From: an uncultured Psychroflexus sp.
Lineage (GTDB): Bacteria > Bacteroidota > Bacteroidia > Flavobacteriales > Flavobacteriaceae
Assembly (NCBI GenBank): GCA_913062845.1
Contig: CAJXVZ010000005.1
Location: forward strand, 1-64,000
Length of the DNA stretch: 64,000 nt
Direction: 5' to 3'
Shown here: piece after piece, positions 38,814 through 39,395 of the stretch
Numbering within the stretch: the first letter of the stretch is position 1
Layout of the letters: every line of letters begins with the position of its first letter
Position numbers and translations under genes: made by a program
The notes under the pieces: model-generated
The model's input: the letters and a program-made list of their open reading frames with translations, nothing else
Told to the model about the DNA's origin: nothing
Databases searched by the model: none

Positions 38814-38845
38814 AAAAAACCCAAAACATAAGCTTTGGGTTTTTT
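38814..38845. terminator. bidirectional terminator
   Basis: AAAAAACCCAAAacataagcTTTGGGTTTTTT. Confidence 0.8.
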
Positions 38846-38847
38846 AT

Positions 38848-38915
38848 GCGGAGAAAGAGGGACACTGACGCTACGGCCAGTGCACTGACAAGCAAAGCTT
38901 CGTCAGTGTTCGAAC
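38848..38915 (-). repeat. partial copy of the tRNA-Ser 3' end, interrupted by a 46-bp hairpin insert
   Basis: GCGGAGAAAGAGGGA(38848-38862) equals 39232-39246, and TTCGAAC(38909-38915) equals the next 7 nt of the tRNA complement; between them CACTGACG...CGTCAGTG (38863-38908). Confidence 0.75.
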
Positions 38916-38920
38916 GTTTA

Positions 38921-39175
38921 TTATTCAGTTGAATACTTTTCAATAAATTTCTGTTTCCTCACTTTGGATAAATTCTTCAATTTCTTCTCGAGTTGAAATG
39001 CTTCAGATTTATTAGGTTTTTCTGTGAACCAAAGCATTTTCCATGGCCTATACTTACTGGTATGGTTTTCTATTCCAGAATTATGCCGTCTTAATCTGTC
39101 CTCTAAATCATTTGTAGCTCCAACATAATACATGTCATGCTGTTCTGAATACAGGATGTAAACATAGCATACCAT
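38921..39175 (-). CDS. GIY-YIG nuclease family protein (YhbQ/UPF0213-like)
   Basis: MVCYVYILYSEQHDMYYVGATNDLEDRLRRHNSG...KYRPWKMLWFTEKPNKSEAFQLEKKLKN. Confidence 0.92.
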   Translation of the reverse strand: MVCYVYILYSEQHDMYYVGATNDLEDRLRRHNSGIENHTSKYRPWKMLWFTEKPNKSEAFQLEKKLKNLSKVRKQKFIEKYSTE

Positions 39176-39191
39176 ACCGTTATTAATTTGA

Positions 39192-39229
39192 ATAAAAAAC
39201 CCTGACTAAGAAATCTTGTCAGGGTTTTA
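39192..39229 (-). terminator. terminator after tRNA-Ser
   Basis: AAAACCCTGAC aagatttctta GTCAGGGTTTTTT on the minus strand. Confidence 0.8.
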
Positions 39230-39232
39230 AAG

Positions 39233-39317
39233 CGGAGAAAGAGGGATTCGAACCCCCGGTACCTTGCGGTACAACGGTTTTCAAGACCGCCGCATTCGAC
39301 CACTCTGCCATTTCTCC
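39233..39317 (-). tRNA. tRNA-Ser(TGA)
   Basis: GGAGAAATGGCAGAGTGGTCGAATGCGGCGGTCTTGAAAACCGTTGTACCGCAAGGTACCGGGGGTTCGAATCCCTCTTTCTCCG; 7-bp acceptor, anticodon loop CTTGAAA, variable arm GTACCGCAAGGTAC, T-loop TTCGAAT; no encoded CCA. Confidence 0.95.
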
Positions 39318-39395
39318 ATTTCAATAATCTTGGAGGCGGTTTTGCCGCTTCGACCTCCTTATCCCGAATCTTCGGGATTGGGACTTCCTTTCTCC
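39318..39395 (-). repeat. 71-bp hairpin-rich insert between promoter and tRNA, plus duplicated GGAGAAA
   Basis: TTTCTCC at 39311-39317 and 39389-39395 flank stem-loops GGAGGCGGttttgCCGCttcgaCCTCC and ATCCCGAAtcTTCGGGAT. Confidence 0.7.

Follow-up and report, generated by a model that had tools for sequence, protein, structure and literature searches.

Free-standing GIY-YIG nucleases with a connection to tRNA genes are known from bacteriophages, where SegB of phages T4 and T6, a free-standing homing endonuclease, has been reported to cut in tRNA-containing DNA, the tRNA-segB unit is amplified in tandem only if the nuclease is active, and this amplification involves recombination via microhomology between the tRNA and segB ends (PMC13096335). 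By analogy, SegB is the closest precedent for the tRNA-linked GIY-YIG elements that we describe here: when SegB is compared by description, a GIY-YIG nuclease stands beside tRNA genes in both cases, and the tandem arrays look similar. SegB is, however, a phage gene, whereas the present elements are bacterial-chromosomal, encode a protein of ~84 amino acids without an extra domain, and are bracketed by hairpin-interrupted tRNA copies. Intron- and intein-borne homing endonucleases of the I-TevI type share with these elements the GIY-YIG catalytic fold, target-specific lineages and patchy gain and loss, but there is no intron or intein here, and the target is kept via an intact gene beside a broken copy. 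The rtT repeats of Escherichia coli tyrT (RF00391) likewise stand in tandem behind a tRNA gene, and every repeat includes part of the tRNA 3' end, but they have neither a nuclease nor a hairpin in the copy. Both the catalytic fold and the free-standing, tRNA-linked lifestyle are of known kinds; we found no description in the open-access papers searched of a chromosomal GIY-YIG family with lineage-specific, hairpin-interrupted target copies and ORF-less derivatives. We favor, with a rough probability of 0.62, the reading that the locus analyzed here is one member of a homing-like GIY-YIG element family, minimal in size, that targets tRNA genes and includes ORF-less derivatives, and for which we infer cleavage and homing.

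The window, by which we mean the whole 64,000-nucleotide stretch of the Psychroflexus contig that was analyzed, contains a single tRNA gene according to ARAGORN, that for tRNA-Ser(UGA) at 39232–39317 on the minus strand (Rfam RF00005, 60.9 bits), among housekeeping genes (SecDF, DUF4252, a sigma factor, ParA/B and DapB). Immediately 3' of this intact gene, and on the same strand as it, lies a terminator (39194–39228) with the hairpin AAAACCCTGAC...GTCAGGGTTTTTT, followed by an 84-residue ORF (38921–39175, minus strand) that matches the Pfam GIY-YIG family (PF01541) with 71.7 bits against a cutoff of 22.6 (E 6.5e-20). Right after the ORF stop come, again on the minus strand, the sequence GTTCGAA (38909–38915), which is the T-loop portion of a broken tRNA copy, a 46-nt insert (38863–38908) between GTTCGAA and TCCCTC that consists of an adjacent pair of hairpins (38883–38908 and 38863–38882) splitting the T-loop of the copy, a repeat of the last 15 nt of tRNA-Ser, TCCCTCTTTCTCCGC (38848–38862), and a second terminator (38814–38845) 3' of the tRNA copy. 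Related hairpins are found at the equivalent place in the tRNA-Ser unit of a congener (G013). An earlier note on this DNA had described a same-orientation duplicate of the tRNA-Ser 3' end with its own terminator, and a GIY-YIG gene as the only ORF between the tRNA and this fragment, and both descriptions hold, in that the duplicate comprises 15 exact nucleotides plus GTTCGAA ahead of the second terminator, and the 84-residue ORF is the sole plausible gene between the two terminators. The hairpin pair inside the copy, and the weaker 5' copy described below, are additions to that note.

The exact 15-mer TCCCTCTTTCTCCGC has two local sites, in the tRNA (39232–39246) and at 38848–38862, and none beyond these in the whole 3.37-Mb genome, while with up to 2 mismatches it has 6 sites in the genome, as does its reversed control. 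Based on these counts, a chance origin of an exact same-orientation copy 370 nt away is very unlikely. As tRNA 3' ends are classic attachment sites, a direct repeat in the same orientation superficially suits an island of the integrase type that has decayed and left its attachment site. However, the bracket spans less than 500 bp, none of the nine neighboring genes tested encodes a Pfam integrase, the copies are hairpin-interrupted, unlike the attachment repeat of a tyrosine integrase, copies also occur at tRNA 5' ends, and the nuclease units form arrays; furthermore, no larger integrase-bearing island was seen at the same junctions in relatives. We find this origin scarcely credible and reject it, as there is no integrase among those neighbors and the repeat anatomy is wrong. 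A phage or plasmid origin was also rejected, with one weak match in 50,697 phage records and three distant plasmid matches.

Upstream of the tRNA there is probably a second, weaker copy, of the 5' part of tRNA-Ser and likewise broken (39335–39395, minus strand), which is made up of GGAGAAAGGAAG (39384–39395), a palindrome-containing D-loop insert (39356–39383) and GGTCGAAGCGGC-AAAACCGCC (39335–39355). Its score is reached by 0/2000 shuffles, yet by 2/842 other pieces of the window, so that this copy is borderline when taken alone. The equivalent 5' place of the G013 tRNA-Ser reads GGAGAAATGGCAG[CCCCGATAGTAATCGGGA]GGTC.

Turning to the nuclease itself, the AlphaFold model of the 84-residue protein (pLDDT 94.6) predicts a confident GIY-YIG fold, with UPF0213 and then Slx1 as its nearest folds, neither of which is a homing endonuclease; the match to I-TevI is weak (E 0.39). 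Stand-alone GIY-YIG proteins of the UPF0213/YhbQ-like type (1zg2, 1ywl) are similar in size, fold and sequence (E 6e-7; fold probability 1.0). The nearest well-described fold after UPF0213 is that of Slx1 (TM 0.64–0.71 on the query), which differs from the present elements in that it is not a mobile element. UPF0213 genes are not known to be associated with tRNA genes or repeats. Slx1 is a structure-specific nuclease that cuts branched DNA, as described in PDB entry titles, and is a eukaryotic repair enzyme that requires Slx4. The window protein consists of the GIY-YIG domain, with no region outside it and no further DNA-binding domain. Among tRNA-associated relatives Y6, Y17, G19, R27, H31 and E63 are invariant, and the catalytic Tyr, Tyr, Arg and Glu correspond to Y6, Y17, R27 and E63, which are unchanged in 24 relatives. 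Values of dN/dS for array copies and relatives are ~0.06–0.27 where dS is measurable, dS being saturated in many pairs, and indicate that purifying selection acts on the nuclease ORF; degraded nuclease copies are found alongside the selected ones.

The arrangement recurs in the same genome, which has 35 tRNA genes and 15 GIY-YIG matches, 12 of them small. Of these 12 small genes, five have a tRNA gene within 250 bp, where 0.07 would be expected (P 6e-9), the tRNAs concerned being Ser, Asn, Met, Leu and Cys. At the Ser, Met, Asn and Leu loci a copy of the end of the locus' own tRNA lies beyond the nuclease, while the Cys locus reaches the end of its contig, with which, judged by eye, another contig that starts with a palindrome-interrupted tRNA-Cys copy overlaps. 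Across the genus, 27 of the 90 regions around small GIY genes have the gene within 250 bp of a tRNA, in all 27 cases on the tRNA strand. With a profile (A1) built from 24 tRNA-associated proteins, 105 of the 198 genomes sampled from the phylum give a match at E ≤ 1e-15, and in the best 28 non-genus loci a tRNA lies within 250 nt in 24, always on the same strand (24/24) and mostly 43–71 nt away; since these loci were picked by likeness to tRNA-associated proteins, they show that the protein lineage predicts the context, and not the frequency of the context among all GIY genes. One distant alphaproteobacterial match came from a search of genome contigs. Gene content and promoter style suggest that the genomes compared belong to Bacteroidota/Flavobacteriales. 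A putative family of minimal elements is widespread in the phylum of the window, with bracketing copies seen at Ser, Asn, Met, Leu, Phe, Arg, Ala, Asp, Val, Lys, Pro and Thr tRNAs.

Most units stand 3' of their tRNA, with 5'-sided units that carry copies of the tRNA 5' end at Arg(acg), Arg(tcg), Ala and Arg(tct), and the Leu(caa) lineage includes both arrangements, L098 being 5'-sided and its sister L257 3'-sided. The earlier note had proposed an element that uses a tRNA 3' end as its target. The small homing-like element is supported, but the 3' end is not the sole target, as related units are found 5' of tRNAs with 5' copies, and within or at the ends of protein genes. The longest array that we encountered among these observations (L150, G013:C34:6991-9748) has eight tandem GIY-YIG genes at a spacing of ~364 bp, each with a broken tRNA-Met 3' copy and a terminator, and no intact tRNA within the fetched stretch.

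The inserts that break the tRNA copies are short palindromes, typically 13–20 nt long and often of the form TCC...GGA, and 43 of 48 non-genus inserts are able to form a stem of at least 5 bp, compared with 5.6% of shuffled inserts. Their positions are characteristic: in two families, most Met copies are broken at 34-37|47-51 and carry the stem TCCGCC/GGCGGA; Asn lineage A is broken at 22-25|36-39, two other Asn units (L232 and L246) at 57|61, Phe copies at 56|62, Asp copies at 50|59 in three families, Arg(tct), Val and Lys copies in the anticodon arm, and 5'-sided Arg and Ala copies after position 22. The position of the hairpin therefore largely tracks the nuclease lineage, with exceptions at Asn (L241, L253) and Asp (L248) that make this a strong tendency in most lineages rather than a law. 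One could imagine that the hairpin-bearing broken copy is itself a working part, whose transcript or DNA hairpin is bound by the nuclease and guides it to the matching tRNA gene. Such a role would fit a protein that lacks a DNA-binding domain, and a hairpin whose position and stem are specific to the lineage (as in the TCCGCC/GGCGGA stem of Met), and, if true, would amount to RNA- or hairpin-directed GIY-YIG homing in which specificity is carried by a piece of the element's own target; we nevertheless regard it as a long shot.

Broken copies also occur without a nuclease. Partial self-copies were found near 18 of the 33 tRNA genes tested in this genome, compared to 14 of 99 (14%) in a swapped control, and many of these copies have the same T-loop or D-loop palindrome and lack a nuclease. 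The pattern CCCGAW(3-5)TCGGG has 34 sites in the genome, against 1–2 for the reversed control pattern, and 16 of the 34 lie within 250 bp of a tRNA, where 0.2 would be expected; the Met palindrome, in turn, is limited to its own locus and one inexact site. That the palindromes form one REP family seems unlikely on these grounds, the Met palindrome being no genome-wide repeat and the CCCGAW family clustering at tRNAs. A second type of ORF-less unit, ~150–180 bp long with several hairpins and a GGATC...TAATCC end fused to the tRNA 3' end, stands behind tRNA genes at seven loci (L170, L189, L195, L056, L032, L050 and L054). At two further loci (L149, 2950–3830, and L164, 3600–3950), ORF-less tandem arrays of broken tRNA-Met and tRNA-Asn copies stand upstream of the intact tRNA, after its promoter.

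The abundance of ORF-less units with the same architecture (18/33 against 14%) lends itself to a different account, in which tRNA ends are duplicated in tandem in the ordinary way and decay as short palindromes insert into them independently, and the GIY gene is a passenger that exploits the safe place behind a tRNA terminator. The main support for this account comes from a few palindromes that lie in loops of one cobalamin and one SAM riboswitch, and from palindromes nested within each other, which suggest that palindromes can insert independently of tRNAs and GIY genes and that their insertion may be a separate activity. We nevertheless consider passenger genes at decaying duplications unlikely, albeit worth keeping in view, as the hairpin position tracks the nuclease lineage even inside one tRNA species (Asn lineage A compared with L232 and L246), nuclease lineages are target-specific across families, and sister units are inserted precisely, as described below. 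The riboswitch palindromes are of the CCCGA...TCGGG form and occupy variable parts or loops of the cobalamin and SAM riboswitches (L198, 1333–1656, and L199, 1170–1303).

As a check, the earlier note had suggested comparing the tRNA-Ser locus in close relatives for empty sites and searching for similar brackets elsewhere. Both are present: some congeners have an empty tRNA-Ser locus, and many more tRNAs carry such brackets, in the same genome, in the genus and in other families of the phylum. With the same upstream neighbors, the locus is empty in G024 and G010 and holds a relic in G011 and G014, that of G011 being a 43-residue nuclease remnant. At the rseP-tRNA-Asn locus a GIY gene is present in ~9 congeners, ORF-less units in 4, and neither in ~11. 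These comparisons of filled and empty loci are between species rather than within one species, and the downstream neighbors of the tRNA-Ser locus differ among the species compared, so that the exact right junction is seen only for the protein-gene units. The tRNA-Ser of G013, which is not syntenic with that of the window, also has a nuclease (65% identical), and this one stands in an array together with ORF-less units of 180 bp.

The relationship between nuclease and target can be followed in a tree of 111 domains, on which the target label requires 16 changes (the minimum being 12, and 40 when shuffled) and the genome label 80, and in a tree with other families added, on which the target label requires 22 changes (the minimum being 15, and 53 when shuffled) and the genome label 53, the deep forks being weak because the alignments are short. 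The tRNA-Met nuclease lineage covers two families with strong support. Judging from these trees, nuclease lineages track the tRNA species rather than the host, although for Asn the agreement between target and tree may partly reflect vertical inheritance, because the nuclease is at the same orthologous locus in several congeners.

In the homing-like reading that we favor, an element would consist of a stand-alone GIY-YIG gene of ~80–100 codons and a short stretch of the target gene, and would settle in or beside a given tRNA gene, always leaving an intact tRNA with its own terminator, while the opposite end of the tRNA would persist as a copy that no longer functions, interrupted by a hairpin where the nuclease lineage typically has it. 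The nuclease may cut the unoccupied tRNA gene, or a structure formed by it, at or near the place of the hairpin, and recombination repair off the occupied chromosome would then copy the element in, which would be homing with rescue. Repeated cutting and unequal recombination could give rise to tandem arrays, and loss of the ORF to the ORF-less units at many other tRNA genes. The nuclease gene adjoins its target tRNA, outside any intron or intein, and the terminator behind the intact tRNA-Asn resembles that of the empty species; for the window locus, a by-eye comparison with G024 and G011 gave an ambiguous picture of which of the two terminators is the original. The inferred model resembles engineered home-and-rescue or cleave-and-rescue drives, in which the cut falls in an essential gene and a functional copy comes with the element, but those are designed, whereas here nature would have produced the system, and its rescue copy shows no visible recoding. 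The intact tRNA is the same in filled and empty species, at the 25–36 site for Asn and over 86/86 nt for Ser (the window tRNA compared with those of G010, G014 and G011), and for this reason resistance of the resident tRNA cannot be explained by recoding of the tRNA; it must instead have another source, such as flanking sequence, poor cutting of the donor or a structural requirement, or else the model is wrong on this point.

If this reading is right, the tRNA genes of a large bacterial phylum host minimal selfish elements of ~350 bp, for which an essential gene is both target and refuge and is kept functional, and which would parallel in nature the engineered cleave-and-rescue designs. The reading would also account for the hairpin-broken tRNA copies beside many tRNA genes, and for the abundance of tiny GIY-YIG genes and of arrays of up to eight copies, and prompts one to ask how a nuclease of 84 residues that lacks a DNA-binding domain retains one tRNA address across families.

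Related units are found in protein genes, where their junctions can be read directly. At one locus (L087), a protein gene is split by a GIY unit of 291 bp whose ends are inverted repeats (GACCCCGTTAGATA...TATCTAACGGGGTA), and when the flanks are joined without the unit they give a 442-residue ORF that is 80% identical to the intact gene of another congener. Units of ~290 bp similarly interrupt genes for four-helix-bundle proteins in at least three congeners, and thus sister GIY units are clean, precise insertions in protein genes. Other GIY units carry a copy of the 5' end of an epimerase gene or of the 3' end of an enoyl-CoA hydratase gene.

The tight tRNA specificity of the nucleases, and the retention of tRNA pieces and hairpins immediately 3' of the ORF, could also be taken to mean that the GIY-YIG protein acts on tRNA as RNA, as a toxin or defense nuclease, with the broken copy as a transcribed decoy or antidote. 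The location of sister lineages in protein genes and intergenic repeats argues against an action on tRNA itself, as do the absence of most of the tRNA from many copies (15 + 7 nt remain at the window locus), the commonness of ORF-less units that are free of a nuclease, and the fact that Slx1, the nearest well-described fold, is DNA-acting, and we judge such a toxin or defense role very unlikely.

Inverted-repeat GIY units of ~290 bp that split protein genes at conserved codons were noted at L087 (4000–6400), L113, L127, L140 and L142. Another GIY-YIG lineage lies within arrays of intergenic repeats of the TCGAGTTCTCGATAC... type (L094, L095, L096, L107, L109 and L115), suggesting that such nucleases may drive intergenic repeats as well. 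Finally, the interval between the enoyl-CoA hydratase gene and a gamma-carbonic-anhydrase-like gene holds a fixed GIY-YIG lineage in five congeners (L010, L092, L097, L108 and L112), and in G041 it is duplicated in tandem, together with a copy of the hydratase 3' end.
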